DNA of 61,018 bases from a virus. The DNA is taken from positions 1 through 61,018 of IMG/VR virus record IMGVR_UViG_3300012209_000002; one strand, given 5' to 3'. This document shows, in pieces, positions 1 through 60,183 of this stretch. A program made the position numbers and the translations under genes. Each line of letters starts with the position of its first letter. The first letter of the stretch is position 1. The notes beneath the pieces are model-generated. The model had not been told where the DNA came from. It made no database searches and saw only the letters and a program-made list of their open reading frames with translations.

Positions 1-123
1 ATCGCCAGCCCCTACGGCTGCACCTGGGAAGAGTTGCGCAACGATCTCAAGCTGATGTGGCGTGAAACCACCCGCGCGTCCAACTGGCTCATGACCGAAC
101 TCTACACGCGCGATTGCCGGCGC
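1..123. repeat. Terminal direct repeat, left copy
   Basis: The first 123 bases are identical to the last 123 bases of the window. An exact overlap of this kind is the usual mark of a circular or terminally redundant sequence cut open by an assembler. Joining the ends gives a 60,895-bp circle and restores one open reading frame across the join. Confidence 0.95.
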
Positions 124-1035
124 GCGGGCGAGGAGAAGATGCCCCCGATGCAGCCCATCGACTTCTATACGGAGCTGAAGCGTTTCCCGGCATTGCCCCC
201 GCAGACCCGCGTGTCGCTGGCTCAAAGCTGCACCAAGAAATACAAAGCATTGCGTCGGGACGTGATCTGGACCTGTGCCAAGAGCCTGCCTAGTTTCCGT
301 TACCCCGTCCCTTTCCCCGTTCACAATCAGAGTTGGAGCGTGCGCATCGAAAAGGGACGGGCAATTCTCCGGGTGCGTATCGGCGAGGGCTGGCGCGAAC
401 TCCGTCTCAAGAGCGGCCCGCAATTCCGGCGACAGTACCGCTCCGTGCAACTGATAGCGAGAGGCGAGGCGATTACCGGCGAGGCAGCCATTTACCAGCG
501 TCAGTTCGAGGGGAAGTCCGCGCTCATGGTCAAGATGGTGGCTTGGTTGCCGCGTACTCCAGTCACGGGACTCAAGCCGGATTCGGTGTTACCGGTCTAC
601 ACACGGAAAGACGCGCTCCTGCAAGCGGTCAACACCGAGGACGAAGTACTGTGGACCTACAATGCGGATCACTTGCGGAGGTGGAGCGAGGAACATCGCA
701 AGACTCTTCAGAGATTGGCGGACGACAACAAATTCGAGGCCCGGCCAGTTCCGAGCTTCACGGATCGCCGTACCGCCCTGGTGCGGAAGTATCGCGACCG
801 CATGGACTCGGCCACGCACGAGATCGCCGCGCAACTTGCCTCGTACGCCGCCCGCCGCAAGTTCGCCGTAATGCGCTACGATGACACGGAGCGGGGGTTC
901 TGCGAGAGCCTGCCGTGGTACCGTTTAAAGCTACTGATCGAGCAAAAGTGCGAGGCGCTGGGGATACGATTTGAAGCAGCAGGCCCAAAAGAGTCGGAAA
1001 CGAAAGAATCGGAAGCGAGAGAAAACCAGCAGTGA
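1..1035 (+). CDS. TnpB/Cas12-like RuvC-fold protein, C-terminal part
   Basis: Continuation of the gene starting at 60680. After a helical segment (WRETTRASNWL) comes a beta-rich stretch resembling a WED domain, then SVLPVYTRKDALLQAV. In TnpB/type V-U proteins the RuvC-I aspartate would fall here, but a tyrosine (about residue 272) occupies that place. A later AVMRYDDTERGF and a final WYRLKLLIEQKCEALGI helix match the region before RuvC-III in TnpB. The usual C-terminal zinc finger and RuvC-III are absent; the protein ends in a charged tail. Family assignment is by motif memory. Nuclease activity looks unlikely, RNA or DNA binding more likely. A structured non-coding region follows immediately. 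Confidence 0.65.
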   Translation: MASPYGCTWEELRNDLKLMWRETTRASNWLMTELYTRDCRRAGEEKMPPMQPIDFYTELKRFPALPPQTRVSLAQSCTKKYKALRRDVIWTCAKSLPSFRYPVPFPVHNQSWSVRIEKGRAILRVRIGEGWRELRLKSGPQFRRQYRSVQLIARGEAITGEAAIYQRQFEGKSALMVKMVAWLPRTPVTGLKPDSVLPVYTRKDALLQAVNTEDEVLWTYNADHLRRWSEEHRKTLQRLADDNKFEARPVPSFTDRRTALVRKYRDRMDSATHEIAAQLASYAARRKFAVMRYDDTERGFCESLPWYRLKLLIEQKCEALGIRFEAAGPKESETKESEARENQQ

Positions 1036-1119
1036 CGTGGATTGAAATCGTTGGCATCGTTTACCGCGATATACTGTTTTCGAAGGTCACCGAGGTTAGC
1101 AGACCTAGGGGCAGAAACG

Positions 1120-1141
1120 CTGAGAACGCTTGCCGACTCAG
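1120..1141 (+). repeat. Constant-loop hairpin, copy 1
   Basis: Stem CTGAG/CTCAG with loop AACGCTTGCCGA, extended by a flanking G-T pair. Compared with the other copies the loop is identical and the stem differs by paired changes. Confidence 0.7.
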
Positions 1142-1367
1142 TATGTGATTGCCCAAATACCGTAAAGTGTTTCGGGATATCTCAGCAGTGTAAAAGCGAG
1201 CGGTCCTGGAAAACGGCGAAAGTCCAGAAGGCTTGAGACCTGCCGTTTCGGTGAAGCGAGAGGCCCGGCGGAAGAGAAAGAGCCGAAACCGCTCGCAAGA
1301 TCGGAAAACAATGAGAAAGAATAGCTTTGAGATTACTGTCCTACCGTACAGGACAGTTCCGACGACG

Positions 1368-1389
1368 CCGGGAACGCTTGCCGACCCGG
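1368..1389 (+). repeat. Constant-loop hairpin, copy 2
   Basis: Stem CCGGG/CCCGG with the same 12-base loop and the same flanking G-T pair. It lies within a 28-base stretch (1366-1393) identical to 59274-59301. Confidence 0.7.
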
Positions 1390-1682
1390 TCGCTCGGATA
1401 GATGCTGGTAAGTCTTGGGATATGTGCGGCTTGCCGCGCCAGCCCTGAGAGCGAGCGAAAGCGAAAACGCTCGCTACGGGCCAAGAAATGGTCTTTCCGC
1501 CATCCACGCCAACGGACTGAGAGCGAGCGCAAACGAAAACGCCCGCTGCGGGTACCTGGCGAAAGCGTAAAACGCGCGTCGGATCGGCAGGAAGATCGCT
1601 ACGGGGTGCCAGCATTGGCCGCTCGCCGCGGGATGGAGAATTGAATTTACAGCCCACCGATTAGGGCTAGGCTAGACATACG

Positions 1683-1704
1683 CTGGAAACGCTTGCCGAT
1701 TCAG
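1683..1704 (+). repeat. Constant-loop hairpin, copy 3
   Basis: Stem CTGGA/TTCAG (one G-U pair) with the same loop. The following bases (TGGCGAAGGC) also match those after copy 4. Confidence 0.7.
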
Positions 1705-2055
1705 TAGCTCTGGCGAAGGCTGGTCCCACTCCTCGGGTTAGTTCTCGTTGAGTGGGCGTAAACACTCCAGATACCTCTTGAAGGGAGCAGCCTGGGGAGC
1801 GACCTTTGACATTCCAGAGGCAGTTGCGGGGCACATCGCGGCTTGCGGCAACCTTGGCCGATCGCATCGGGACCGTCTCTATTTTCGAATCCCGGGAATG
1901 TCGCATCGGTTCAGGTCGCGTCGGGAGCCGCTTCGAGGCGCCGGTGCTATCCAACGCCAATCTATCTTTTCCCCGTCTCTTACTCCATACTTGCGGTTTT
2001 AGATCGTTAGGGTCGTTTCGGTCGGTTACGGGTCGCGTCGGGAGAGGTTGCCATC

Positions 2056-2588: not shown

Positions 2589-2877
2589 GTCGCTTCGGGG
2601 TGCGTCTGTCGCCTCGACATCGTCCTGATTTGCAGGTTGCTTCGTGCAAGGGCCGATTGGACGCAAAACTACTGTGATTTGGGCCGCTTCGGAATAAGCG
2701 TGCAGGTAACGTCGCTTCAGGATAATCCTCGCGTGGATTGCCGGTCGCCTCGGAGTATGCTGCCCGCCCCCGGTCGCTTCGGTGCTTTGATCGGCTTGGG
2801 TAGTCGCCTCGGGAACGAGGAATACGGGCCGCGCAGGTCGCTTTGTCTTAATGTACCGGCCATTGGACCGATAGCGG
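2589..2877. other. Non-coding gap holding the densest motif array
   Basis: 289 bases between the plus-strand holin and the end of the minus-strand late region. No credible gene. It contains three strict TCGCNTCGG sites and several variants. No clear bidirectional terminator hairpin was found. Confidence 0.6.
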
Positions 2878-5202
2878 CTATTGAGCGGCGGCCTGCTTCG
2901 GTTCCGGTTGCTGCGATTTTGCCTCTTGTGCCACCCGCGCGGTTAGTGCCGTTGCTGCGGCGGTCCATGCTGGCGTGCGTACGGGCAGTGTCATAGCTTG
3001 AGTCAACAGTTTTGCTCCACCGGGGCTGAATAAGATCCGCGATCCCAACCAAGGCAAGCCGACGGCCCCGGTTATCTCCAATGCCGCTTGTCCCAATGCC
3101 GCTTGCTTAAACCCTCCGGTAATTGCCGTCACCAAAGCGTGCGCAACCGTTCCGTAAGCGCCTAATGCGTACCAACTGGAAGAAGTACCCGAAGGATTCA
3201 TAATCCGGCTGACCCGCTTGGATGCCAGCATGAACTTATCCAAATCCCCGGTGAGCTGCTTGCCGAACAACAGCTCCTTGGTTTCCGGCCCCAGTCTGTT
3301 CCAGTCGGCCGCAATCCCGGCGCTCCGTCCGAATCCGCCTTCTTTCGTGGATTTATCGATCAGCCCTTCCAGAAACGTGCGTCCGGTGGTTTTCAGTTCG
3401 TTTGGAGCGATCTTTCGCAACTCCCGCAAGGTATTCAACGAACGGTCGCCGCCTTGCACCAAGTTGTAGTAAAATTTCGCGGGCTCCTCGCTCATATCCT
3501 GAAACAGCTCATCCACGTTATGATAGGCACGCACCAATCGTCGGCCGGCTTGCAATTTGCCGAGAACGTCCGATCCCGCCCCCTGCACCGCTCGTTGGAA
3601 TTCGGTTTCTCCTTGCGCGATCGTCATCTTGGCGAGACGCTGCGATTGTGTGGAAAGATAAGGGCTGTCGCCATCGCGCGCCAGTGCTTTCACCGCGCTC
3701 AAGGTCCGGTCGAAATCCATGGCATTCATGAATTTCTTGTCCGAAGTCATCAATTCTTCGAGACTGCGCCATGCTGGGGAATTGGCCCGCCGCGCATCCG
3801 GCAAAGCCCGCTTCAGATCGTCGTAAACCGGCGCTAATCCTTGACGAATGGGCGCGAGATCGACGGGAGTTTCCAGAACGCTGTAAACGGGCACCTGGCG
3901 CGGCATTCCAGCGGGTGTCAGCGTGGCCAACGGGTTCGCTCCGGGCACCGTTTTCGTTCCGGTCTGCACGGTTTGTCGGTTAACCGCTGTCGATTGCCGC
4001 ACCTCGTTGTAGAGTCGATCGGCTTTCCCTTTTAACTGCGCGGTCAGACGAATTCGTCGCTGAATCAACGCCTGTCCCGCGCCGTAAGGATCGGTGACTT
4101 GTCCTCCTGCCCGCGCCGCCAGTTGCTTTTCTTTGCCGGCTAACGCTTCTTCGGTCGCCATACGGGCCTTACTGGCGCGGATGCCCGAGCCCGGCAGACT
4201 TTCCATAGTCTGCTCCACCCGCTTCAATCCGGGATGGCCCGTCCGCTGTCCAATGCTCAATGGCACGTCTTTCTCGATGGACTGAACGGCGGCTTCTTCC
4301 ACCGGGTTATAGACATTGCGCACGGCCGGTTCCAAACGGATTCCTTTGGGCAGCAATTTGGCCGCAGACGGCGCCAGCAATTCGAGCGTATGGGCCGCGC
4401 CCGCACCGTAGCGTCCTGCGCGAAAGTCTTCTCCGGCCTGTACCGCACCTGGACCGGCTATCGGCAAATACGATGCAGCGCGATATCCCAAACCGGCAAT
4501 CCCCGGCTCTTTCTTAGACTTCTCGTACATTTCCCGCTGCTGCCCGTACATCGCACGGCCGGCTTGAATCGGATTCTTCGCTGCCTCTCCGATCGCAGCC
4601 GGCAGATTGGAAATGTCCCCCCAGAGCGTACCCCAAAATCCTTTTGGCTGCATCGCTGTGTTTTGCAAGCCCAATTGCACGGCATTGGCTTTTTCCTTAA
4701 GGGGCAATGCTTTAAATGCCGGATCGTAGGCATCCAGCACCTTGATCTTTTCGATTCCAGGCAATTGCCGGAAGTTCGGGTCGGCGAAGATCTTACTCAA
4801 CTCGTCGGCCCCGCTTGACTGTTCGCCAGTTCTTTGCGTTTGATCCACGATTAGTTTGCCCGATTTGTCTACCAGCCGGTCGCCTTCCCAATGCGGCGCT
4901 TCCTCGGTCGCATACCGGGATTCTTTGGAAAAGTATCTGTGATACGGCGTTTTGTAGGTATCGGGGAAGTGTGCGCTGCCACCGCTCTTAACTCGCGTCT
5001 CCCGTTCCGCCATAGCTTTTGTGTCCCGAAAGAATCCGCGCATGTCGTAGTTAGAGGTCGGCGATTCGGTCCATGGGATCTTATTACTCTGCACCCAGAT
5101 TTGGAATTTCTTCTCTTCATCCGGCGGTAGTTTGGTGAGGTACGGTCCGGGTTTGGCAAAAGGAGACGGCGAAGTAAGTTGCTCGCTCAGTTCGTCAGCC
5201 AC
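2878..5202 (-). CDS. Large internal virion / ejection-type protein
   Basis: 774 aa, the last gene of the late minus-strand operon. The N-terminus has FQIWVQSNKIPWTESPTSNY followed by DMRGFF, a motif I associate with phage structural proteins. The middle is helical and rich in Lys/Gln/Ala. Near residues 680-750 there are Gly/Ala-rich hydrophobic stretches (ALGAYGTVAHALVTAITGG) that could cross a membrane, as in podoviral ejection proteins. Four bases separate it from the upstream gene. Assignment to ejection rests on position and composition, not on a firm family match. Confidence 0.6.
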   Translation of the reverse strand: MADELSEQLTSPSPFAKPGPYLTKLPPDEEKKFQIWVQSNKIPWTESPTSNYDMRGFFRDTKAMAERETRVKSGGSAHFPDTYKTPYHRYFSKESRYATEEAPHWEGDRLVDKSGKLIVDQTQRTGEQSSGADELSKIFADPNFRQLPGIEKIKVLDAYDPAFKALPLKEKANAVQLGLQNTAMQPKGFWGTLWGDISNLPAAIGEAAKNPIQAGRAMYGQQREMYEKSKKEPGIAGLGYRAASYLPIAGPGAVQAGEDFRAGRYGAGAAHTLELLAPSAAKLLPKGIRLEPAVRNVYNPVEEAAVQSIEKDVPLSIGQRTGHPGLKRVEQTMESLPGSGIRASKARMATEEALAGKEKQLAARAGGQVTDPYGAGQALIQRRIRLTAQLKGKADRLYNEVRQSTAVNRQTVQTGTKTVPGANPLATLTPAGMPRQVPVYSVLETPVDLAPIRQGLAPVYDDLKRALPDARRANSPAWRSLEELMTSDKKFMNAMDFDRTLSAVKALARDGDSPYLSTQSQRLAKMTIAQGETEFQRAVQGAGSDVLGKLQAGRRLVRAYHNVDELFQDMSEEPAKFYYNLVQGGDRSLNTLRELRKIAPNELKTTGRTFLEGLIDKSTKEGGFGRSAGIAADWNRLGPETKELLFGKQLTGDLDKFMLASKRVSRIMNPSGTSSSWYALGAYGTVAHALVTAITGGFKQAALGQAALEITGAVGLPWLGSRILFSPGGAKLLTQAMTLPVRTPAWTAAATALTARVAQEAKSQQPEPKQAAAQ

Positions 5203-5205
5203 GGT

Positions 5206-6957
5206 TTATTTTCCGATTCCACGCAGACGCAGGTACTCATCGGCGGTTTTGGGAGGTGGTCCCGGAGCACCCGTAGGTCCGCTCGGCCCAGATGGTCCTG
5301 TAGGTCCGCCCGGCCTTGGCCCCGCACCTTGCCCTGTATCTTGCGCCGGTCCCCCAATCTCCACCCCGCCTTCCGTCATCGCCGGACTGTTTCTGATCGA
5401 GTTCAGCCGGTATCCTAGGTTCTTGCGCGTCAAGTTCACCGCGGCCCGCAGCGTCTTGTCGTCCCAATCGCCGCTTAGAATCTTCATGGCCTGCCCGAGA
5501 CTTTTATCGGTAGGAGTGTTTCCTCCCTGATAGACTGTGGCGAGTTCGGATTGCAGATCGGTGATTTGGATATCGAGAAGCCGCGCTGCTTCCGCCGCCG
5601 GTTGCCCGAAAATTCCGCTTTTCGCCGTGTTCAATGCCAGTTTGTTGATAATCGGAAACTTGGTGCGCGGAACGGCATTGCGTAAATCTCCGAGCAAATC
5701 CTTACCCGGTTGTTGAGAATTGTCGATCAGGTCCAGACTTTCCACGGTGAAATCGACGGCTTGCCGCAATCGCACCTGCGTCGGTCCGTTCAAAGTCCGT
5801 ATCCAGATAGTTGTAGCCATCCAGTCTTTCTGGGCTTTGGCGAGATTGTATCCTTCCCTAGCCAGTTCGGCGGTCACGCGTCCCGCCATTCCTGTACGAC
5901 CCAACCCTGTCAGCATGGGCGACAGCAACCCATTTTTAATCCCTTGTGCGATGCTGGGCGCATCTTTCTCTGTCTGTTGCAAGTTGATGATGGACGCGGG
6001 CAGACGGTCGGCCTTGGTAATGGATTCCTGTCGCGCTTTGGCGTATGCCTCTGCAAACGGCATTCCTTTGGCCATGAATGCGTCGGTGCGAAATCTGGTA
6101 ATTGTAGCCATCTGATCGGATGCGTAATATTGGCGCGCCTGTTCTCCTTGTTCTGGAGTCAGCGGTAATTTCAATCCTGCCTTTTGTGCGTAAGCCTGAT
6201 GTAATTCCTCATCCTTCAGTTTGGCTTCGGACGGTACAGCGGGTTTATCGGTGCGAGTCCAGTTTTCCGGCGGTCGGAACGTTTTGCCCGCCATGCGATA
6301 CACATCGGGAGGATCGGTGGATAACTTGTCCAAAATTACGACGGTGCCATCCGGCTTGAGAAAATGCGCTTCCTTCTCGGAACCGGTTTTGGCCTCGACA
6401 TTGTACAGCTTGGCAATGCCGGTATCGTACTGATCCTTGGTAATTTGTCCGGTGCGTAGCGCCTCATCCAGCCGGTCCCGTCCCGTTTCGATTCCCATTT
6501 GCTGGGCAACGAACAAATCTTCGTCCGCCTGCCGCTGTACGATGCTTTTCTTTTGCGCTTCCCGTTGGGCTGTCTGCTGCGCGATTTCGTCGCGTTTGAC
6601 TCGTACCTGTTCCGGAGTAAGGCTGGCTCCCGCGGGCATGGGCGGCACCGCCGGTCCCTTCCCCACCGGGTCCAGTTGCCCTAGCCCCTTTCCCATGGCC
6701 TTTCCCGCGCCTGCCAATGTTCCCAACATGCCGAACAGCTTCCCCGAGTGCTGCTTCATCTGTGGGGGGCCTTCTTTCTGAAACAGCTTTTCGTAGTTCT
6801 GCAGCGCCCAGGCTTTGAGCACGGAAGGATCTTGACCGGCGGACAGCAATTCTTCGTCGGGCGCGGTGAACAGGTGTGTATACATCGCCGACTGGTTCAT
6901 CACGTCGCGTTGCTTGGACTCCTGATGCGTCCGAATCAGATTGGTGATGACACCCAT
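5206..6957 (-). CDS. Internal virion protein with collagen-like C-terminus
   Basis: 583 aa, mostly helical. The C-terminal 50 residues contain collagen-type Gly-X-Y triplets (GPTGPSGPSGPTGAPGPP) and then a short conserved-looking end. It lies between a 65-aa gene and the terminal 774-aa gene, where podoviruses carry internal or ejection proteins. Collagen-like tails in phages usually sit in fibres or act as trimer linkers. The exact role is unknown. Confidence 0.6.
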   Translation of the reverse strand: MGVITNLIRTHQESKQRDVMNQSAMYTHLFTAPDEELLSAGQDPSVLKAWALQNYEKLFQKEGPPQMKQHSGKLFGMLGTLAGAGKAMGKGLGQLDPVGKGPAVPPMPAGASLTPEQVRVKRDEIAQQTAQREAQKKSIVQRQADEDLFVAQQMGIETGRDRLDEALRTGQITKDQYDTGIAKLYNVEAKTGSEKEAHFLKPDGTVVILDKLSTDPPDVYRMAGKTFRPPENWTRTDKPAVPSEAKLKDEELHQAYAQKAGLKLPLTPEQGEQARQYYASDQMATITRFRTDAFMAKGMPFAEAYAKARQESITKADRLPASIINLQQTEKDAPSIAQGIKNGLLSPMLTGLGRTGMAGRVTAELAREGYNLAKAQKDWMATTIWIRTLNGPTQVRLRQAVDFTVESLDLIDNSQQPGKDLLGDLRNAVPRTKFPIINKLALNTAKSGIFGQPAAEAARLLDIQITDLQSELATVYQGGNTPTDKSLGQAMKILSGDWDDKTLRAAVNLTRKNLGYRLNSIRNSPAMTEGGVEIGGPAQDTGQGAGPRPGGPTGPSGPSGPTGAPGPPPKTADEYLRLRGIGK

Positions 6958-46538: not shown

Positions 46539-46789
46539 GCACCTCGATCTCCGTCACCGCCGAGGATATCGCCAATGGACGGCCGAAGCATCTGAGTCGA
46601 TGTCCGGTGGCGCTGGCCTTGGCACGCACGTTCTACACCGAAACCGTGCGGGTCTATGAAGACTACTATGCGCTGAACGATTACCCGCGAAATTGGCCCG
46701 TGAGCGTGACCGTGTGGATCGAGCGGTTCGACAAGGGAAAGCCCGTGAAGCCGTTCGCGTTCGATCTGGAAGTGGAGATAGACGCATGA
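46535..46789 (+). CDS. Conserved early phage protein
   Basis: 84 aa, ATGA overlap. ISVTAEDIANGRPKHLSRCP and VALALARTFYTE follow a pattern common in phage early regions (V-x-x-x-DI-x-x-G...CPVALAL). Unknown function. Confidence 0.6.
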   Translation: MSTSISVTAEDIANGRPKHLSRCPVALALARTFYTETVRVYEDYYALNDYPRNWPVSVTVWIERFDKGKPVKPFAFDLEVEIDA

Positions 46790-50760: not shown

Positions 50761-50930
50761 GTGAGACCCTGAAATCCATAGCCGCCGCCATCGCCGTTGG
50801 ATTGGTAGCGAATGCCGACTATTTCAACAGCCATAGCGAAGACCAACTCGTACAATGCGCGCTCCGCTTAGCCGTTGCCGTAAACGACGAAGCGGACGCG
50901 TGCGGGTTGGGCGAATTGGGCGAAAAATGA
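50757..50930 (+). CDS. 57-aa early hypothetical protein
   Basis: Start set by ATGA overlaps at both ends. SETLKSIAAAIAVGLVANAD and QLVQCALRLAVAVNDEAD form two helices. Unknown function. Confidence 0.55.
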   Translation: MSETLKSIAAAIAVGLVANADYFNSHSEDQLVQCALRLAVAVNDEADACGLGELGEK

Positions 50931-52474
50931 CCGCCGCCAAAATCCTCACTCCCGCCTCCCTCGGCTTGCCCCCGCACTTCTCCGCGTTTCGCCCGCACCA
51001 GCTCTCCGCGATCGACTATGTTCTCGCTTCCTCCAAGCGCTTTCAGGGACTCTCGCTCCCGACCGGCAGCGGCAAGACACTGATCGCCATGGCCGTCGCC
51101 CGCGCGCTCGGCGTCAAAACCGTCTATCTCACCTACACCAAGGCCCTGCAGCGGCAAATCGTGGATGAGTTCGGCTGCATCGGGGCGGTGTCGGTCGAAG
51201 GCCGCGCCAATTACTCTTGCCGAACGCTGCTCGCCGGCTCTTGCGAAGAAGGCGCCCAAGCCAATTGCCCCCTACTTGCCTCCAGCCCCGAGTGCCCGTA
51301 CCGCGCCGCCGTTCTCGCCGCCCAGCGCTCCCGTCTCATTGTCGCCAACTATGCCTATTGGTTGCGCGTGCGAGCCGATCGGAGCGATGCGCTGGAGTCG
51401 GGGGAAAAGGTGGGCCGCTTAATCTGCGACGAAGCTGGGGAGGCCCCCAAGGCCCTCTGCGGGCATCTTTCGCTGGAGTTTGCCATGGATCGCTCCGGCT
51501 CGGGCTCTGGACACATGCCCAATCCGGTCTGGTTCGAGTGGGGGAACCGGGAAGCGTTGCGCACGATCCGGGAACGGGCGAACGTGGCGCAAGGTACCCC
51601 CCAGTACTACCGGCTGACCCGCACGCTCGAAGACCTGGCCCAGATCCCGGCAATGGACTCGAACTGGATCTGGGAGCAGGACCGACACGCGGTGCGTTTC
51701 GACGCCATTTGGCCCGCATCCTACGCCGAGTCCCTATGGTCGAACGTGCCTCGCGTGCTCATCCTCTCCGCGGCCTTGCGCCCGTACACCCTCCAACTCC
51801 TGGGACTGGAGCCTGCTTCCTACGATTTTCGCGAGTGGCCCGCCGTCTTCGCCCCGCACCTCGGCCCGGTTTACTACCACCCGCCGTCTCCGCCCGTTCG
51901 CATGACCGCCAAAACCAAGCCCGCCGACCGCGAGCGCGTCTGGAGCCTCATGGACGACTGGCTGGAAGCCCGCCGCGACCGTAAAGCTTTGATTCAAACG
52001 AATTCCTACGACAGAATGCGCGAGCTGGCCGCGTATTCCCGCCATGCCGGCCGCATGATCTTCAACGACTGCGCCGGCGAGAGCGGTCCCGCCGCCGAGT
52101 ATTTTCGCTCGGCCTCTCCCGGTACGATCCTGGTCTCCCCCTCGTTCGGCACCGGATGGGATTTCCCCGGCAGCCAATGCGAGCTGATCCTCATTCCCAA
52201 AATTCCTTACGCCTCGAAATCGTCCGCCGTGGAAGCCGAGCGTCTGCGCTCTTCCGAATACCTGCAAAACGCCGCCGTCCAAACGCTTGTGCAGCAGGCC
52301 GGCCGCGCCCGCCGTCACGAGCGAGACCGGTCGGAGACGGTGATCTTCGACTCGATGCTGAAGTGGGCCATGGGCAGCCCCAGAGAGCCGTGGCGGGGGC
52401 ACGCGCCTCGTTGGTTCCGGGTGCATGAGATCGCGGAGATTCCCCCCGCGCCGCCCAGACTGGAGACCGTGTGA
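50927..52474 (+). CDS. DinG/XPD-type superfamily 2 helicase
   Basis: 515 aa. Walker A PTGSGKT (45-51), a four-cysteine set at about residues 98, 106, 114 and 123 for an iron-sulphur cluster, DEAG box (168-171), motif III-like LILSAALRP, motif V FGTGWDFPG and motif VI QQAGRARRH. This set is typical of DinG helicases, which unwind 5'-tailed DNA and R-loops. Coupled at both ends by 4-base overlaps. It probably serves replication or recombination. Confidence 0.85.
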   Translation: MTAAKILTPASLGLPPHFSAFRPHQLSAIDYVLASSKRFQGLSLPTGSGKTLIAMAVARALGVKTVYLTYTKALQRQIVDEFGCIGAVSVEGRANYSCRTLLAGSCEEGAQANCPLLASSPECPYRAAVLAAQRSRLIVANYAYWLRVRADRSDALESGEKVGRLICDEAGEAPKALCGHLSLEFAMDRSGSGSGHMPNPVWFEWGNREALRTIRERANVAQGTPQYYRLTRTLEDLAQIPAMDSNWIWEQDRHAVRFDAIWPASYAESLWSNVPRVLILSAALRPYTLQLLGLEPASYDFREWPAVFAPHLGPVYYHPPSPPVRMTAKTKPADRERVWSLMDDWLEARRDRKALIQTNSYDRMRELAAYSRHAGRMIFNDCAGESGPAAEYFRSASPGTILVSPSFGTGWDFPGSQCELILIPKIPYASKSSAVEAERLRSSEYLQNAAVQTLVQQAGRARRHERDRSETVIFDSMLKWAMGSPREPWRGHAPRWFRVHEIAEIPPAPPRLETV

Positions 52475-52638
52475 CCGTATACATAGAGTGCGCCGATTGC
52501 CAGAAGCGTTATCCGGTTTTCCTCGACGGCAGCTTGCCTAGCGAGTTGATCTTGCAATGGAAATGCGATTGTGGGTTTCGCGGCGAATATACCGTGCGAA
52601 CCGCTTCCCCGGTTTCGCCGGGACTGGAGCGCGCATGA
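52471..52638 (+). CDS. 55-aa zinc-knuckle protein
   Basis: GTG start in a GTGA overlap. TVYIECADCQKRYPVFLDGS, then WKCDCGFRGEYTV: CxxC and CxC make a small zinc ribbon. Below the usual length cut-off. Stop overlaps the next ATG. Confidence 0.6.
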   Translation: MTVYIECADCQKRYPVFLDGSLPSELILQWKCDCGFRGEYTVRTASPVSPGLERA

Positions 52639-52985
52639 GCGTCGTGCTTCTGTTCCACGAACTGGCCGCGACCGGCGAGCGCACCGAGTATACCGACCGC
52701 TATCTGGTCTCCTACGATCCCTCGCACCACTGGGCCAACGGCGATTACGACGGCGGCCTGCCGGTCACTACTCCCGATCCCCGCGACGCCATACAATTCG
52801 CCGATGCCGGAGCGGCCATGGAGATGTGGAAACGAGGGCCGTCTTGTCGTTGCCATCGTCTGCGTCCGGACGGAGAGCCCAACCGCCCCTTAACCGCGTA
52901 TACGGTGAGCGTCGAACCTGTGTCCGCCGTCAATCGAGGCACGTCCGGGGAAACAGTTGAGAAAAAGAGAGGAGAACCGAAGTAA
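52635..52985 (+). CDS. Early hypothetical protein
   Basis: 116 aa, ATGA overlap. Beta-rich start with YLVSYDPSHHWANGDYDGGL, a Cys-x-Cys-His (CRCH) in the middle and a disordered tail. No family recognised. Confidence 0.55.
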   Translation: MSVVLLFHELAATGERTEYTDRYLVSYDPSHHWANGDYDGGLPVTTPDPRDAIQFADAGAAMEMWKRGPSCRCHRLRPDGEPNRPLTAYTVSVEPVSAVNRGTSGETVEKKRGEPK

Positions 52986-54017
52986 ATGAGTAAAGTCAGT
53001 TTCGCCCCCGAAGACTTTTATCAGCCCCAATCCCTCGGTTTTGTCGAGATTGTGGGCTCCCCGCGCTTAGGCGAAGTCGTAGACATTGTCGCCCGCTATC
53101 ATCAATGGCAGCCCAGCAAATCGACCGGCGAGCAGCAGCCCCCGCTCACCGGCGTGTTTCTGAGTATTCTGCCGGTCGACGAGCACGGCAATGCGCTCGG
53201 CGTGGACGCCGTGGACCAAGAACTCGTGGCCCAGTGGGGCGACTGGCAGAAGCCCCTGCCCGCGATCCGCCCCGGCCGCATGGAAACGCGCGAAAGCGAT
53301 CCTCAGGACACGGCTGTGGGAGGCACACTGGTGCTGGGCGCAGAAGGCAACAGCCTGTATGCCGATGACAACACCCTGTTAAGCGGCATTGCCCCCTGGG
53401 GCGTGTTGCTCAAGTCCCTGGAAAATTGCGGGTTCTCCGTAGAAGTCCTGCGCGCGGGATATCTGCCGGATTTCGTGGGCCTGCGCGCGAGATTCGACCT
53501 GAAGCCGCGCGAGTACATAGACCGGCGCACGAGCCAGAAGAAGGCCGCAACCGATTTCGTGTGCGTGGAGATCGCGCGCTTGCCCTACGCCACGCGATTC
53601 ACGGAAACTCCGAAAGCGCCTTCCGCCCCGCCGTTGCCCACTCCTATCAAGGGCCGGGGGAGAACGACATCCGCGGACCGCGAGAAACCAACCGTTTCCC
53701 CGGCGGATGTGGGCACCGTGCCTGCTTCGGCGCTCAACGGCCCGCCCGTTATGCCCGGCGCGGACGCCATCGTGGAAGCCGCCGCGCTCGACGCGCTTTC
53801 CAGGGTCGCCACAACCTGCGCCGGCCAGCGCCTCAATGTCAAGCAACTGTTCGTGTACGCGCTCCAGTTCGCCATGCAGCGGGACAATGCCTCGGCGCTC
53901 TACGATCCGTTGGTGGCTCTGTTAAACGGCAAGGGCGCGCAGACATGGCTTACGGCCCATGCGCCCGATTTCCACGCGGCCCCGGTGCCCAATGGCGGCT
54001 TTTTAATGGTGGGGTAA
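52986..54017 (+). CDS. Replication-region protein, possibly ssDNA-binding
   Basis: 343 aa. The N-terminal 200 residues are beta-rich (GFVEIVGSPRLGEVVDIVAR, LKPREYIDRRTSQKKAATDF), compatible with an OB fold. A Pro-rich linker joins a helical C-terminal domain (LFVYALQFAMQRDNASALYD). It lies between DinG and the nuclease/Bet genes, where a ssDNA-binding protein would be expected; no SSB motif proves it. Confidence 0.5.
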   Translation: MSKVSFAPEDFYQPQSLGFVEIVGSPRLGEVVDIVARYHQWQPSKSTGEQQPPLTGVFLSILPVDEHGNALGVDAVDQELVAQWGDWQKPLPAIRPGRMETRESDPQDTAVGGTLVLGAEGNSLYADDNTLLSGIAPWGVLLKSLENCGFSVEVLRAGYLPDFVGLRARFDLKPREYIDRRTSQKKAATDFVCVEIARLPYATRFTETPKAPSAPPLPTPIKGRGRTTSADREKPTVSPADVGTVPASALNGPPVMPGADAIVEAAALDALSRVATTCAGQRLNVKQLFVYALQFAMQRDNASALYDPLVALLNGKGAQTWLTAHAPDFHAAPVPNGGFLMVG

Positions 54018-54023
54018 GGGGCC

Positions 54024-54251
54024 ATGAGCCCGGAAACCAAGGATCTTCTTCCGCGCGAACGGGCGAAAGAGTTAGTGCTGGCGGCCATCGGGCGCATCGA
54101 AACCAGCCGCGCCCAATATCTGAAGATGAACGCGGATGCAAGAATCGGTCCGGTAGATCTGCAAAAACAGAAAGCGCAAATCCGACAGTTCGAGAACGAG
54201 TTTGGCTGGCAGTGGCAGAACGTGAAGCGGCTGCTGACGGAAATGGACTAA
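54024..54251 (+). CDS. Small helical early protein
   Basis: 75 aa, all helix (RERAKELVLAAIGRIETSRA, QKAQIRQFENEFGWQWQNVK). Between the putative ssDNA-binding gene and the nuclease gene. Unknown function. Confidence 0.6.
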   Translation: MSPETKDLLPRERAKELVLAAIGRIETSRAQYLKMNADARIGPVDLQKQKAQIRQFENEFGWQWQNVKRLLTEMD

Positions 54252-54258
54252 GTGCAAA

Positions 54259-54885
54259 GTGCAAATCTTGGAAGATGTCACCGTAAATCTCGATCGCCTG
54301 GACCTGGCCGGCCGCACTTCCCCGATCCGGTGCATGTCGGCCCCGCGTTCCCCAGGCCCGCACTTATCCGGCGTATTGCGTTACATCCTGCGTACCGCGC
54401 GCCTGCCGGGATGGGAGCGCTACGACGAGGAGATCGATGCGGATTCGGTCCCGCTCCTCTGGTGTATGGGAATCATGTGGGAGGAGTTCGTCCTGAGCCT
54501 CTACCCCGGTCTGATCTGGCAGCCGGGCGAGCGTTGTCTGAGCGGTGTGTTTATGACGTGCGATGCGCTGAACTGGTTGGACGGCGAAAACGAAATGATT
54601 CTCGAAGAGGCCAAGTACACTTCCGCCAAACCGCGCACCGGGGAAGAGTTCTGTCAGGACTGGCTGAAGCAGATGCAGGGGCGGGGCTATTGCGCGGGCT
54701 ACCAATTGCGCGTGTGTCGCTGGCACGTGCTGTACAACTACAACCCGCGCGAGCCCGTGTACAAACGGTTCGCGATCCGGTACTCGGACCGGGAAATCGC
54801 GGACACCGAACGCACGGTGCTGGCGAACCGGGACGCAGCGGTAAAGGCGGGATACGCGGAGGGAGTGACGGCATGTTCAGCGTAA
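54259..54885 (+). CDS. PD-(D/E)XK nuclease (RecB/Cas4-like)
   Basis: 208 aa, GTG start. MWEEFVLSL supplies the early Glu (75/76), FMTCDALNWL the Asp (102) and ILEEAKYT the ExK (117/119); WLKQMQGRGYCAGYQLRVCR is the following QxxxY-like helix. The order E-D-ExK-Q fits RecB-type exonucleases. With the Bet annealase 0.5 kb downstream, it is the likely 5'-3' exonuclease of a two-part recombination system. No iron-sulphur cysteines of Cas4 seen. Confidence 0.7.
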   Translation: MQILEDVTVNLDRLDLAGRTSPIRCMSAPRSPGPHLSGVLRYILRTARLPGWERYDEEIDADSVPLLWCMGIMWEEFVLSLYPGLIWQPGERCLSGVFMTCDALNWLDGENEMILEEAKYTSAKPRTGEEFCQDWLKQMQGRGYCAGYQLRVCRWHVLYNYNPREPVYKRFAIRYSDREIADTERTVLANRDAAVKAGYAEGVTACSA

Positions 54886-55100
54886 GCCAGAAGCGCGAGA
54901 TCGCGGAAAAGGTTCAGCGAATCCTGCGCGCAACCGATCGCCCGGAACTGCCGGAAGGCGAGATCCGGTTTGTCTTGCATGTGGAAGGCGCGGAATCCTG
55001 GAGCTGGGCGGACATCCGCAATAACGGGAGTGTCGATTTCCCTTCCATCAATCCCTGGAACGAGCGGCAAGATGGCGCGCAAAAACAGGAGAAATCGTGA
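54873..55100 (+). CDS. Conserved small phage protein
   Basis: 75 aa overlapping the nuclease gene by 13 bases. KREIAEKVQRILRATDRPEL, then FVLHVEGAESWSWADIRNNG; I recall this family ('ELPEGEIxFxLHVxGAExWSWADI') in many phages. Unknown function. Confidence 0.65.
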   Translation: MFSVSQKREIAEKVQRILRATDRPELPEGEIRFVLHVEGAESWSWADIRNNGSVDFPSINPWNERQDGAQKQEKS

Positions 55101-55215
55101 AAACCGCGCGACGGAGGCGGAGATCGCGGCCCACGGCTTTAAAGGGGAAAGGTTGACATTGTGCCGCGGCTGGGATTCCGGAAACGGAATCGGGAACGTA
55201 ACCGAAACGCTATGA
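55072..55215 (+). CDS. 47-aa basic protein
   Basis: ATG inside the previous gene, stop overlapping the next start as ATGA. ARKNRRNRENRATEAEIAAH is strongly basic and helical. Small nucleic-acid-binding protein is possible. Confidence 0.45.
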   Translation: MARKNRRNRENRATEAEIAAHGFKGERLTLCRGWDSGNGIGNVTETL

Positions 55216-55430
55216 CCGTCCAAGAGTACGCCCGCGAACGCTTCCGGAAATGGATCGAGAAAATAGACGCCGAAAACGCGCTGCCTCTGTTTGTGTACGC
55301 AACCGATGCGGGCGGAAGACCGCTGCTGCTGGGAGACGGCAACATGTCCATGGAAGAACTCCGCGCGCTGGTGCGGGATCTGGCGCAGATTATCGAGCAC
55401 GCGCAGTTCGTGAAAGGAATCGTGCAATGA
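55212..55430 (+). CDS. Small early hypothetical protein
   Basis: 72 aa, ATGA overlaps at both ends. TVQEYARERFRKWIEKIDAE and SMEELRALVRDLAQIIEHAQ are helices around a short strand region. Directly before the Bet gene. Unknown function. Confidence 0.6.
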   Translation: MTVQEYARERFRKWIEKIDAENALPLFVYATDAGGRPLLLGDGNMSMEELRALVRDLAQIIEHAQFVKGIVQ

Positions 55431-56299
55431 AGACAGTCCAGCAATCCGAGCCGGTCGAGATCCAGTCCGCCCCCGCGCTGGACGGCCCCGGGGAAACTTT
55501 CCCTGCCGTCCAGCAATTCAAGCAGGAGTTAGACAGATACGACCGCGCCGAGATCCTGAGTACGATCCGCCAGACCGTCTGCCGCGGAGCCTCGGACCCG
55601 CAGTTTCGCATGTTCATCGAGGTCTGCAAAAGCACCGGGCTCGATCCGTTTCTCAAAGAGATCTGGTTCGTACCCGGCGTTGGCATCATGGCCGGCCGCG
55701 ACGGTTACCTGCGCGTGGCCAACCGGCACCCCCAATTCGACGGCATGAAAACGGTGGTCGAGCGGGATGCCAAGAACGTGCCCATTAAGGCCGTGTGCGA
55801 GGTCTGGAGAAAAGACAGGGCGCACTCGGTCTCGTGCGAAGCGTATTTCAACGAGTACGTAAAACCGACACCCTCCTGGAAGCAGTATCCGAGCGCGATG
55901 ATCGGCAAAGTCGCGGAGGTCATGGCCCTGAAGCGGAGTTTCAGCATCAACGGGGTGGTGACCGAGGAGGAGATCGGCAGAAACCCGCCCGCGCCCGTGG
56001 GAGTGCCCGTGGAGATCGAGGCTGCGCCGGAGCCACCCGTGCAAATACCGTCCGATTGGACTGTCGGTCGCGAACCGGCTTACACAGTCGCTTCAGAGAA
56101 ATCGGAAGAACCGCGCTCTCAATGGGGCAACCGTGGCGCCATGCGAAAAGCGTTCGCCGCCGAACAGACGCGCGTGGGCGAGGAAGTCTACCGCGCCGCG
56201 CTCGACAAATGGCGCGCGCGCGATCTGCTCTGGCCGAACGCCCAAGCCGCGGAAGAGTGCTATCGCTGGCTGAGGGAGCAACCGGAGAAATCTGCATGA
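55427..56299 (+). CDS. bet: RecT/Bet-family single-strand annealing protein
   Basis: 290 aa. FIEVCKSTGLDPFLKEIWFV, MAGRDGYLRVANRHPQFDGM, AYFNEYVKPTPSWKQYPSAM and EVMALKRSFSINGVVTEEEI form the RecT/Bet core. A variable Pro-rich linker and a C-terminal helical tail (YRAALDKWRARDLLWPNAQA) follow. It anneals complementary single strands during replication-linked recombination. It pairs with the PD-(D/E)XK nuclease upstream. Confidence 0.85.
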   Translation: MKTVQQSEPVEIQSAPALDGPGETFPAVQQFKQELDRYDRAEILSTIRQTVCRGASDPQFRMFIEVCKSTGLDPFLKEIWFVPGVGIMAGRDGYLRVANRHPQFDGMKTVVERDAKNVPIKAVCEVWRKDRAHSVSCEAYFNEYVKPTPSWKQYPSAMIGKVAEVMALKRSFSINGVVTEEEIGRNPPAPVGVPVEIEAAPEPPVQIPSDWTVGREPAYTVASEKSEEPRSQWGNRGAMRKAFAAEQTRVGEEVYRAALDKWRARDLLWPNAQAAEECYRWLREQPEKSA

Positions 56300-56718
56300 A
56301 CCGGCATCAGAAGATTGCGCTGGAAAATCATTGCCGCCTAGCGGTGGAGTGCCTGCACCCGCGTTTTCACTGGATACGCAGCGGATTTTCCGTCATTCTT
56401 ACCGTTAACTCGGGTTACGAATGACAAGAAGCGGGTTTTGGCGGGCCGGTCTGGCACGTCTCGGTAAGAGGTTATGGGGACTTGCGAAAACAAGCGTTTT
56501 TAACGCTGGAAGGCGTTGGCGACGAGCAAAAGGGACAATGGGAAGAACATGGACAAGATTTGAAAGCTTATCACCTGCGCCGGCGGTTGTCCGATGCGGA
56601 GCAAAAACTGGCGGGCGGGCTCGTGGACGTGGATATTCGGAATTCGCCGGAATACGGAATCCGCCGCGCCGCCATGCAGCCTTATCTTCCCCCGCAATAT
56701 GCGGATTGGCAGGAGTGA
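56296..56718 (+). CDS. Conserved phage protein with an in-frame TGA
   Basis: ATG 56296 overlaps the Bet stop. NRHQKIALENHCRLAVECLH ... SGYE reaches TGA at 56422-56424. The same frame continues QEAGFGGPVWHVSVRGYGDL, then LEGVGDEQKGQWEEHG and YHLRRRLSDAEQ to 56718. AGFGGPVWHVSV...LEGVGD...FHLRRRLS is a family signature I recall, and it begins before the first possible internal start (TTG 56482), so the stop lies within the conserved gene. Nonsense change, read-through or assembly error. UGA-C is a leaky context. Confidence 0.6.
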
Positions 56719-56733
56719 TGCCGGAATAACGTT

Positions 56734-57216
56734 ATGACAATTGCATTGCTGGCTGCCAAATTGATACAGAGCTTCGAGGGGGTCAAGCTGCGTTCGTATT
56801 TCGATAAAACCGGGAAAGTATGGACCGTGGGCTGGGGTCATACGGGTTTCGATGTCGAGCCGGGCATGGAAATCACTTTAGAGGAAGCAACAGGATATTG
56901 GATGGATGACAGCGCTCCCCTGATTGCGTTAGTCGAAGACCGCCCCTTGATCGAGGCCGCGGCTTTAGTCAGCTTTGGCTATAACTGCGGGATCGGAGCC
57001 TTGAAGCGCGTGCTCTCGGGCGAGATCGAGGTCACCCACGAGGAGTTCACGGTGCGCGACTCGCGGGCGCCCTATGGCGAGTTGTCGGGCGGGGTGAAAC
57101 TGGCGGGGTTGTACGCGCGGCGGCAACTGGAGGCGGCCTTGATCGAGGCGAGCCGGGAAATGCTGAGCCAGGAACCGATCCGCGAAATGCTACGGGGCGG
57201 GAAGGGGCCGACATGA
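56734..57216 (+). CDS. GH24 phage lysozyme (endolysin)
   Basis: 160 aa. AAKLIQSFEGVKLRSYFDKT, then VWTVGWGHTG is the muramidase core: Glu in SFEG, followed by the GWGHT motif, as in T4/P21 lysozymes. LVSFGYNCGIGALKRVL is the usual following helix. It cleaves the glycan of peptidoglycan. No signal peptide, so it needs the holin. ATGA overlap with the next gene. Confidence 0.85.
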   Translation: MTIALLAAKLIQSFEGVKLRSYFDKTGKVWTVGWGHTGFDVEPGMEITLEEATGYWMDDSAPLIALVEDRPLIEAAALVSFGYNCGIGALKRVLSGEIEVTHEEFTVRDSRAPYGELSGGVKLAGLYARRQLEAALIEASREMLSQEPIREMLRGGKGPT

Positions 57217-57635
57217 TCCGCCCATTGACCCGCGCCGAAATCCGCCGCATGAAAAAGCTCTGGGCCAAAGTGCCGCCGATTACCGGCTGTAAGGGCCTCT
57301 GTTGGGAATCCTGCGCCAACGCTCCCATGCATCCCGTCGAAGCGCGGTATCTGGGAGCGAAGTATCCACGGCAAACTGGAGGCGTGGAACGGCTGTTGGA
57401 ACTGCCGATTTTGGGGCCGCGCGCCGAGACGCTGGAACCGGCCGACTGTCCGTTTCTCGTGAACCGGCGATGCTCGATCTACGAAGATCGCCCGCTAGTG
57501 TGCCGATTGTTCGGCCAGCCTTTATTGGGTCACTTGCGATGTCCATACGGCTGCGACACGACGCATAAGCTAACCGCACAGCAAGGCGCGGATTTGATGA
57601 CAGCGATGGCGCAAGCGGGAAACGAGGTTTCGTAA
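57213..57635 (+). CDS. YkgJ-type cysteine-cluster protein
   Basis: 140 aa. CKGLCWESCANAP, DCPFLVNRRCSIYEDRPLVC and GHLRCPYGCDT supply about nine cysteines in the order of the YkgJ/CxxCxxCC family, thought to bind iron-sulphur or zinc. RPLVCRLFG is its hallmark. Known in phages without a clear function. Possible role in RNA or protein modification. Confidence 0.7.
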   Translation: MIRPLTRAEIRRMKKLWAKVPPITGCKGLCWESCANAPMHPVEARYLGAKYPRQTGGVERLLELPILGPRAETLEPADCPFLVNRRCSIYEDRPLVCRLFGQPLLGHLRCPYGCDTTHKLTAQQGADLMTAMAQAGNEVS

Positions 57636-57664
57636 CAATGCCTGGATATACGCGGGGAGGGTCG

Positions 57665-57859
57665 ATGAGCACCTGGGAATCCTCCTGCGAGCTGGAGCCC
57701 GGCACGCCTCTGCCCCCGCCCTTCGAGCTGCTGAAGATCGGCGAGCTGCTGGGACGCACACCCGCAGGCAACTATCTCTACCGGGTGGGAATTGAGGGAG
57801 AGCCGGTTGCGGACAACGAAATGGAGTTTAGCAGAGAGGCGAAAGAGGTGCAGGAGTGA
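57665..57859 (+). CDS. Small early hypothetical protein
   Basis: 64 aa from ATG 57665, with GGAGGG upstream; an ATG at 57638 is possible. GRTPAGNYLYRVGIEGEPVA is beta-rich. GTGA overlap with the next gene. Unknown function. Confidence 0.55.
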   Translation: MSTWESSCELEPGTPLPPPFELLKIGELLGRTPAGNYLYRVGIEGEPVADNEMEFSREAKEVQE

Positions 57860-58098
57860 AAATCGCCGTCTGGATTCACCGTCAAGGCCGCCACGAAACC
57901 CAATGGGGCACCTTGCGCGCCTGGATCCTGCAGGATGGCAGGCGTGGCGTAAATCTGCTGGCCGAGCATAAGCCGACCGATCTGGAAAACGCCAAACGGC
58001 AGATCCGGCACGCGCTGGAGCAAAAGCTGGGAAGCGTGGAAATCGAGTGGATGGGCGAGGGAGCGGAATCGCCAGTAACGAAGGAGGCGCATGAGTGA
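57856..58098 (+). CDS. Small early hypothetical protein
   Basis: 80 aa, GTG start in a GTGA overlap. Strand-helix-strand pattern (KIAVWIHRQGRHETQWGTLR, ENAKRQIRHALEQKLGSVEI). Unknown function. Confidence 0.55.
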   Translation: MKIAVWIHRQGRHETQWGTLRAWILQDGRRGVNLLAEHKPTDLENAKRQIRHALEQKLGSVEIEWMGEGAESPVTKEAHE

Positions 58099-58330
58099 TC
58101 CTCATCGACCGGAGATTTCATTAGTTGCCGATGAAGGCAGAGCATTTAGTTATATGGCAATTGAGTTGGACATGGGCGATCTCGATCGGTTATGCGCTCT
58201 CGGTTCGGTGGGATGGCATTGCATTGCCATCGACAAAGATTATGCCTTGTTGGAACGGGAAATACCGAAGCATCGGATTCAAGCAGTGAGACAGTATTAC
58301 GAAGAACGAAAAACAGAGGTAGGTCAATGA
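58091..58330 (+). CDS. Small early hypothetical protein
   Basis: 79 aa overlapping the previous gene by 8 bases. MAIELDMGDLDRLCALGSVG and WHCIAIDKDYALLEREIP fit the small 'WxxVA...ALLER' proteins known from phages. Unknown function. Confidence 0.6.
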   Translation: MSDPHRPEISLVADEGRAFSYMAIELDMGDLDRLCALGSVGWHCIAIDKDYALLEREIPKHRIQAVRQYYEERKTEVGQ

Positions 58331-59110
58331 ATGATCCTCATCGACCGCCGCGAAGACGAGCAATTGACCCGCGAACTGGCTCGCTTCCACTTGCCCTTCG
58401 CCTGCGTCGAGTTGCCCTGGGGCGATTGCTCGTTCGCGGGCAAAGGGCCGGACGGTCCGCTCCTGATCGGCTTCGAACGCAAGCGCCTGCCCGATCTGAT
58501 CCATTCCATGCAGGACCGCCGCCTTGCCGGTTCCCAGCTCGTGGGCATGCGCCAGCTCTATGCCCGTGTCGGCCTGGTGGTGGAAGGACTGTGGCGCCCC
58601 GGCCAGGAAGGCACGATCGAGGTGCAGGATGGGCATGGAGAATGGGTCGAGTATTATCATCGGAAAAAGCAGGGGATTGCCTGGCGCCAGATCGACTCGT
58701 TCCTGCAATCGCTGGTGGAGCTGTGCGGGGTGGAGGTATGGCGCACGGCCACCGTGCGGGAGACGGCGCACTTGTACTGTTCCCGGTACCGCTGGTGGCA
58801 GAAAGACTATGCGCTACATCGCAGCCACCGGCAGATCCACGCGCTCGATCCACTGGCGGCGCGCGGGGGAAGAGTGGAATTCGGGCGCGAACCCAATGCG
58901 ATCGTGCGAGTCGCGGCGCAGATCCCCGGCATCGACCGGAAGGCGTGGTCAATTGGGGAACAGTTTGGGTCGGTGTGGGAAATGACCGATGCTTCGATAG
59001 AGCGCTGGGAAAGCGTGTGGTGGGACGACGGCAAAGGGAAGCGCAAACAGTTCTCGCGGGAGAGCGCGAGAAAGATCGTAGCGTGGTTGCGGGGATTGGA
59101 AGTCGCATGA
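58331..59110 (+). CDS. ERCC4-type (XPF/Mus81-like) nuclease
   Basis: 259 aa. ILIDRREDEQL (D5), LPWGDCSF (GD 31-32) and GFERKRLPDLIHSMQDRRLA (ERKxxxD, 49-55) form the ERCC4 active site. The C-terminal part has AAQIPGIDRKAWSIGEQFGS, a helix-hairpin-helix-like DNA-binding segment. Such nucleases cut branched or flapped DNA. Last firmly coding gene before the second RNA-like region. Confidence 0.8.
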   Translation: MILIDRREDEQLTRELARFHLPFACVELPWGDCSFAGKGPDGPLLIGFERKRLPDLIHSMQDRRLAGSQLVGMRQLYARVGLVVEGLWRPGQEGTIEVQDGHGEWVEYYHRKKQGIAWRQIDSFLQSLVELCGVEVWRTATVRETAHLYCSRYRWWQKDYALHRSHRQIHALDPLAARGGRVEFGREPNAIVRVAAQIPGIDRKAWSIGEQFGSVWEMTDASIERWESVWWDDGKGKRKQFSRESARKIVAWLRGLEVA

Positions 59111-59470
59111 GATCGGTCGCGTTGGTGTATCGAGCCGTGGACGGAGCAGAAGTCGCGTCGGAAAGTTCTCGGATGGAATTTGGTTGCGTCGGGTTGATCG
59201 AGGAACGGATTTCGGGGAGCGAAGCAAGGATATTTACGGACTACGGGCTACCGAACAAGCCCAGGCCGACTAACGCCGGGAACGCTTGCCGACCCGGTCG
59301 CGTTGGCGAAGGCGGTTCTCCGGAAAACCGGGGATGAAACGCTTGGGATAACCCGGCTGGAACCAACGCCGGGTCCGCCCCAGGAGTGACTGACTACCTC
59401 GCGGGAGGATTCGGCAGTGAACTCGGGTTGGAGTGTGGTATCGAAGAACGAGTTGAGTCGGGACCAGTAA
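59111..59470 (+). ncRNA. Second candidate structured RNA region
   Basis: About 360 bases between the ERCC4 gene and the next ribosome site. It holds constant-loop hairpin copy 4 (59276-59297), GGGCT/AGCCC (59245/59258), CCGG-AAAA-CCGG (59320-59331) and an AACGCTTG variant at 59338 between CCGGG and CCCGG. Three TCGCNTCGG-like motifs lie at 59117, 59153 and 59184. A 76-aa open frame overlaps it but ignores this structure. Related in sequence to the region at 1.09-1.76 kb. Confidence 0.5.
59276..59297 (+). repeat. Constant-loop hairpin, copy 4
   Basis: Stem CCGGG/CCCGG with loop AACGCTTGCCGA, within 28 bases identical to 1366-1393. The only copy upstream of the TnpB-like gene. Confidence 0.7.
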
Positions 59471-59925: not shown

Positions 59926-60183
59926 ATGAACATTGAAAACATAAAACCTGGCGAGAAACCCGATTGTGTGATTGCGTTAAATAAAGACGATCCGTGTTAT
60001 CGGCCATCCGAGGGCGTAATCGACAATAAGTGCTTGCTATGCGAAGCCACTGTAGCACTGGATCGGGCTAGCCAAGCATTGATGCCTTTGCCGGTTTATT
60101 GTTTGACATGTTTCATGCAATTCAGAAACGCCAATGTTGTGATTAGAAGAGCAGCACCCGTGCATGTGTTCGATGCGGAGTAA
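59926..60183 (+). CDS. Small zinc-knuckle protein
   Basis: 85 aa. KCLLCEATVALDRASQALMP and VYCLTCFMQF give two CxxC pairs. Ends with the repeated HVFDAE. It lies exactly between the two 22-bp repeats, so it may be an inserted cassette. AT-richer than its neighbours. Confidence 0.6.
   Translation: MNIENIKPGEKPDCVIALNKDDPCYRPSEGVIDNKCLLCEATVALDRASQALMPLPVYCLTCFMQFRNANVVIRRAAPVHVFDAE
60162..60183 (+). repeat. 22-bp direct repeat, copy 2
   Basis: Identical to 59899-59920. It ends the 85-aa zinc gene and is followed by the motif TCGCTTCGG at 60187. Confidence 0.8.

Follow-up and report, generated by a model that had tools for sequence, protein, structure and literature searches.

Type V-F among the CRISPR (clustered regularly interspaced short palindromic repeats) systems is that of Cas12f, formerly Cas14 or V-U3, and the unit normally recognised in a CRISPR repeat spans a few dozen bases, a length on which array finders depend. 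Nuclease-dead Cas12f is the core of the dCas12f-guide RNA systems in PDB entries 9n9c and 9n9m, systems of sigma-factor-coupled RNA-guided transcription. Cas12m (type V-M) has an inactive RuvC domain and silences by binding (reviewed in PMC11656645), and TldR of temperate phages is a phage-borne dead RNA-guided DNA binder (PMC13418256). Cyanophage CL131 is described as encoding a small TnpB-like effector beside a 36-nucleotide (nt) repeat array, assigned to type V-U2 (PMC6293099), and a landfill virome held many virus-encoded V-F- or V-U-like proteins beside arrays (PMC12607003), so that compact phage systems as such are already known. Here we analyse a family of RNA hairpins and the gene that they flank in the viral IMG/VR record IMGVR_UViG_3300012209_000002, taken whole (61,018 nt; the window). 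With good confidence, the locus is best explained as a phage-borne dead-Cas12f CRISPR system, derived from type V-F, with a scaffold resembling a trans-activating CRISPR RNA (tracrRNA) in multiple copies.

A terminal repeat of 123 nt (60896-61018 equals 1-123) makes the record a circle of 60,895 nt, on which the gene of a 416-residue protein spans the record junction. An earlier note on this DNA had described a hairpin with an invariant 12-nt loop and covarying stems, three copies following and one preceding a TnpB-like gene on the circle. This arrangement is as described and the linkage to the gene stands, but the protein is better named a nuclease-dead Cas12f homologue, on the strength of its profile and predicted fold. 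Effector relatives with 33-50% identity are encoded on six more viral contigs, amounting to five distinct sequences: the L011/L017 contig, L016, L018 (identical to L019), L020 (contig G005) and L050. The PADLOC Cas12f profile matched four of the four proteins of the first scan, most strongly L016 (1.9e-13) and the window protein at 1.6e-6; the L020 and L050 proteins, taken singly, were below scoring. A profile built from five effector proteins retrieved OsCas12f (1.9e-8) and also Cas12f1 from the PDB. An AlphaFold model of the L017 protein (predicted local distance difference test score of 76) matched AsCas12f at 1e-12, dCas12f-guide RNA at 4e-11 and, more weakly, TnpB at 2e-7, with TM-scores of about 0.4 over the whole chain that leave the domain arrangement uncertain. 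The window protein has a Cys4 zinc-finger-like N-terminus and stops at about profile position 345 of 399, with no cysteine pairs in its tail; its relatives, too, end short of the C-terminal zinc ribbon. RuvC-III is absent from all effector proteins, and none has the complete RuvC site (Asp, Glu, Asp). The RuvC-I Asp is off its aligned position: most members have an Asp 1-2 residues away, whereas L016 and L018 lack one. At the RuvC-II Glu position there is Asp or no counterpart. From these losses and alterations we infer that cleavage has been lost, and the effector is almost certainly nuclease-dead.

The reported hairpin, here HP2, has exactly four copies in the window, all on the + strand, with the loop AACGCTTGCCGA unchanged at 1125-1136, 1373-1384, 1688-1699 and 59281-59292; the reversed control pattern gave no match in the window. 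All pairs in the four stems (GCTGAG/CTCAGT, GCCGGG/CCCGGT, GCTGGA/TTCAGT and GCCGGG/CCCGGT) are standard, including the outer G-T that had been pointed out, and the differences between copies are compensatory or wobble changes. Rather than an open loop of 12 nt, the apical part more plausibly consists of an internal loop (AA/A), two CG/GC pairs and a terminal loop of 5 nt, CUUGC. Each HP2 copy is preceded, at a distance of about 10-20 nt, by a first and strongly covarying hairpin, HP1, that the earlier note had missed. Its stems in the window are AGGTC/GACCT, GTCCT/AGGAC, AGCCC/GGGCT and GGGCT/AGCCC, its loops there all start with ACCG, and across scaffolds the loop has the form [A/T]CCGNN. 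A GGGATA element is common to window copies 1, 2 and 4, some 30-60 nt past HP2, and is present in relatives too (copies u1 to u4 in the table below). Over both hairpins in five sequences, the four window copies and L017, 95% of cells pair and 8 of 13 pairs are changed on both sides. The covariation score (0.55 versus 0.29 in shuffles) lies above all 500 shuffles and all slid versions, which supports the proposal that RNA structure is under selection; a MAFFT alignment of all scaffolds, in which HP2 of L018 and L020 was misplaced, did not enter these counts. A search against Rfam at gathering and relaxed thresholds returned nothing useful, and the hairpins match no Rfam family.

Homologous copies were found in viral relatives both by loop scan and by covariance model. 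Scanning IMG/VR for the exact loop gave seven matches, of which L011 is the sole true relative; the other six were judged chance because they lack the HP1 context. L011 was also the one meaningful match to a pattern of the loop with its flanks. There, the two-hairpin element begins about 15-50 nt downstream of a gene whose product shares 50% identity with the window effector. Alignment-based scans added L016, L018/L019, L020 and later L050. The covariance model R1, built from the window and L017 scaffolds, recovered the element between gene and array in L018/L019, which had no part in its training (E = 0.01 in 328 kb). A weaker match in L016 (E = 0.26), truncated at the contig end, lies exactly downstream of the gene. 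No effector relative was found in GTDB species genomes, INPHARED phages or PLSDB plasmids, where the genome scans used short exact peptides and can miss relatives.

CRISPR arrays, which the earlier note had also missed, are present at the locus. Ordinary arrays follow the effector gene in three of the five distinct relatives. In L018/L019, eight identical 37-nt repeats with 37-41-nt spacers directly follow gene and scaffold. The circular contig G005 carries 35-nt repeats, then a second scaffold copy and further repeats, of which the distal ones shrink to their 3' end (TTCACTGGTGCGG, TTCATTGGTGCGG, GGTGCGG). In L050, one more open reading frame (ORF) separates the effector gene from an array of eight 36-nt repeats. 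A search for cas1 found none in any record, window or relatives. On the L011/L017 contig (85 kb), ORFs near the array (L011 ~2850-5870) resemble a replication initiator and ParA by eye, and this element may be a phage-plasmid or a plasmid. Three roles had been offered for the hairpins. We rejected a packaging or replication signal, as the element tracks the gene and the arrays across otherwise different genomes, and likewise a free-standing large ornate phage RNA; the third, a guide scaffold, is retained, and the hairpins are very probably a scaffold of the Cas12f family.

The scaffold shows two sets of complementarity to the repeats. The HP1 loop can pair with the five bases that end the repeat, its 3' tag: loop CCGCA pairs with tag TGCGG in L050 and G005, CCGAC with GTCGG in L017 (17 of 32 tags, the remainder being TTCGG), and CCGTA of window copy u2 with TACGG in the repeats after u2. 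In the window, every tag after u3 carries T as its second base, which CCGA loops require, and tags after u2 differ from the other window tags as the u2 loop predicts (Fisher p = 0.002). Over six loci, loop and tag pair at 10 of 12 variable positions, a value reached by 12 of 720 permutations. The bases before GGATA in turn pair with the repeat 5' end (CCTGG:CCAGG, GCCGG:CTGGC, TGAGAG:CTCTCA and TCTTGG:CTGAGA), and of the 24 possible assignments the true one pairs best. In these sequence comparisons the element resembles a tracrRNA, and its two repeat contacts, with compensatory change between genomes, are well supported. A TGCGG tag-like stretch also occurs in both copies of an exact 22-nt direct repeat, TGCATGTGTTCGATGCGGAGTA, at the ends of two small genes (59899-59920 and 60161-60182).

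Besides its two long repeats, the window contains short repeats of about 10-12 nt that resemble the 3' end of the long repeat; the last ten bases of the latter (TCGCTACGGG) differ from the short repeat (TCGCTTCGGG) at one position. Sites like GGTCGCNTCGGG in 1860-2814 number 15 on the + strand versus none on the other (0.8 expected), and L017 has 37 sites like GATCGGTCGGG versus one in reverse (0.8 expected); a looser pattern gives a strand ratio of 18:1. Two possible small genes without PHROG match lie amid the window's repeat groups (2056-2588), one of them (2328-2588) with hydrophobic stretches. A scan with the short-repeat pattern turned up five further contigs, which were judged unrelated GC-rich sequence; no effector gene was found there, only weak model matches. 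Whether the ten-letter repeats function as guide repeats we regard as an even call. A bolder proposal, offered tentatively, is that they would be working minimal CRISPR repeats, with a five-base tag docking in the HP1 loop and replacing the 35-37-nt repeat. Dozens of short guides might then be served by scaffold copies with different loops, each for its own subset of tags, so that a Cas12f that does not cut would be directed by an addressed code of tracr and guide.

We propose that the effector, encoded just upstream of three scaffold copies, works with a scaffold RNA that would grip the CRISPR repeat at two contacts, the HP1 loop (CCGNN) holding the 3' tag (N'N'CGG) that adjoins the guide and the bases before GGATA holding the repeat 5' end. 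HP2, with its invariant apical loop CUUGC, is probably protein-binding or architectural. The ribonucleoprotein would bind guide-matching DNA without cutting, and most likely block transcription or replication, be it of a rival phage or plasmid or of a host gene. As the effector is dead, binding and silencing are the likely mode, as in Cas12m and TldR, and we lean towards silencing. The sequences themselves show the RNA structure, the Cas12f homology, the missing catalytic parts, the link to CRISPR arrays in relatives and the covariation of repeat with anti-repeat; expression, complex formation, silencing itself and guides from the ten-letter repeats are what we infer. One G005 spacer (L036 561-580) matches the contig's own dCas12f gene (46588-46607) at 18 of 20 seed positions, against a maximum of 16 in 100 shuffles, possibly a signal of self-regulation. 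In L050, spacers 1 and 4 (~2883-2918 and ~3105-3141; RSAFETPRVHSF and RSALETPRVESF) are identical at 28 of 36 positions, and most of their differences fall on the third codon positions of a single reading frame, which suggests a common target site in two related genes.

Several points count against this interpretation. Spacer searches found no target in phages and only noise at E = 4 in plasmids, and in their own genomes no match above chance except the one in G005. L050 shows no evident HP2 loop, and in L018 loop CCGCC and tag TGCGG pair at 4 of 5 positions only. By duplex energy alone, cognate repeat-scaffold RNA pairs could not be told from non-cognate ones. Independent relatives are few, the permutation tests are small and take no account of phylogeny, and both pairings were tested on the data that had suggested them; for these reasons the two contacts are called well supported, not proven.

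Compared with type V-F, the locus shares the effector family and size, the 35-37-nt repeat arrays of its relatives and a tracrRNA-like element between gene and array. An array beside the effector is clear in L018/L019, G005 and L050, and the window has two 36-nt repeats together with shortened ones. It differs by lacking RuvC-III and the C-terminal zinc ribbon, by altered RuvC-I and RuvC-II, and by several scaffold copies per genome, arrays of ~10-nt repeats and the absence of cas1 in any record here. As a complete RuvC site and a zinc ribbon were not found, we file it as a V-F-derived nuclease-dead variant and not as a regular member. The dCas12f-guide RNA systems are likewise nuclease-dead Cas12f and among the best fold matches, but here multi-spacer CRISPR arrays occur in phages; no sigma-factor partner was noticed among the listed neighbouring ORFs, for which no sigma-factor profile search was run. 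TldR resembles the window protein as a nuclease-dead TnpB-like protein, although the latter is nearer to Cas12f than to TnpB; TldR is TnpB-derived with a guide RNA cassette and no array, whereas here the relatives have arrays and the effector is Cas12f-like. Type V-M is alike in working, with an inactive RuvC and silencing by binding (here predicted), but is another Cas12 lineage with a weak fold match (E = 1.4e-4). For CL131, the passages concerned report a RuvC-like nuclease domain and regular repeats and mention no multi-copy scaffold (PMC6293099). TIGR-Tas systems have a Nop-domain effector, whereas our fold search gave Cas12f, with no Nop among the listed matches. In the open-access literature we found neither ten-letter repeats nor a code between scaffold loop and tag described.

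Other explanations differ in which part of the locus they address. The ten-letter repeats alone could be DNA sites (operators, iterons or partition sites) for another protein, unrelated to guide RNA; their irregular spacing, the two possible small genes amid them and the ParA- and initiator-like ORFs near those of L017 would fit such sites. The strand bias (15:0 for the window, 37:1 for L017; 18:1 with the looser pattern), the likeness to the long repeat of the window at its 3' end, the grading of G005 repeats from full to shortened and the match of tags to scaffold loops speak against them, and we hold this explanation rather unlikely. If arrays and extra scaffold copies were instead the decaying, now idle remains of a CRISPR locus that used to be active, one would readily expect repeats that degenerate, as in the window and distally in G005, lost catalytic parts and a missing cas1. 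Decay is nevertheless improbable, given that compensatory changes keep the stems paired, that all relatives keep an intact reading frame and conserved residues, and that it would not be expected to leave the ~37 nearly uniform short repeats of L017.

Slightly less probable again is an omega-RNA of the TnpB/TldR type, in which each hairpin copy would be a single-guide RNA with its own downstream guide, serving a TnpB-derived repressor with no array. Four scaffold copies scattered round the gene, the precedent of nuclease-dead TnpB-like repressors in phages (PMC13418256) and TnpB among the fold matches lend it some appeal, but regular arrays follow the gene in three of five distinct relatives, Cas12f outscores TnpB in profile and fold, and the scaffolds covary with the array repeats. 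Finally, the RNAs might act as RNA anti-CRISPRs, decoys that tie up Cas12f or another Cas12 protein of the host, by analogy with phage single repeats proposed as dominant-negative CRISPR RNA mimics (reviewed in PMC11656645). With an effector of the phage's own encoded beside the scaffolds and with diverse spacers, this is very improbable.

The window is a tailed-phage genome of a divergent lineage. Structural and primase genes lie on the - strand at 26594-49877 (major head protein phrog_9953, terminase phrog_5989, primase phrog_6088), and a replication module at 50855-59110 includes a helicase (phrog_2488) and a RecT/Bet-like annealing protein (phrog_252). The ORF at 58331-59107, without PHROG match, looks by eye like an ERCC4-type nuclease. 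A search for transfer RNA genes in the window found none.

Table 1. Features of the dCas12f-like locus in the window.
Feature	Positions	Strand	Remarks
dCas12f-like gene, 5' part	60680-61018	+	ORF on the circle, 416 residues in total, continues at position 1
dCas12f-like gene, 3' part	1-1035	+	ends without zinc ribbon or RuvC-III
Scaffold copy u1	1084-1180	+	HP1 1084-1106 (loop ACCGAG...), HP2 1119-1142, GGGATA element 1170-1180
Scaffold copy u2	1336-1424	+	HP1 1336-1356 (loop ACCGTAC), HP2 1367-1390, anti-repeat element TCTTGGGATA ending near 1424
36-nt CRISPR-like repeat CTGAGAGCGAGCGAAAGCGAAAACGCTCGCTACGGG	1445-1480	+	hairpin and tag TACGG; repeat family with 72-nt period
36-nt spacer	1481-1516	+	no target found
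Second 36-nt repeat	1517-1552	+	89% identical, tag TGCGG
Degenerate repeats, 3' end only	1593-1632	+	TCGCTACGG ends at ~1604, TCGCCGCGG at ~1631
Scaffold copy u3	1651-1741	+	HP1 1651-1668 (loop ACCGATT), HP2 1682-1705, GGGATA element degenerate (CTCGGGTTAG)
Short-repeat array, 15 sites like GGTCGCNTCGGG	1860-2814	+ only	spacing often ~30 nt; two possible small genes interrupt the array
Three more short repeats	59115-59193	+	just upstream of scaffold u4
Scaffold copy u4	59245-59352	+	HP1 59245-59262 (loop ACCGAACA), HP2 59275-59298, GGGATA element 59342-59352

If the proposed system is real, a lineage whose repeats are ten-letter tags covarying with a scaffold loop would escape array finders, and its shrunken repeats would show how much of a CRISPR repeat is needed. 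It would also connect dead-Cas12f regulators, TldRs and the competition between phages.
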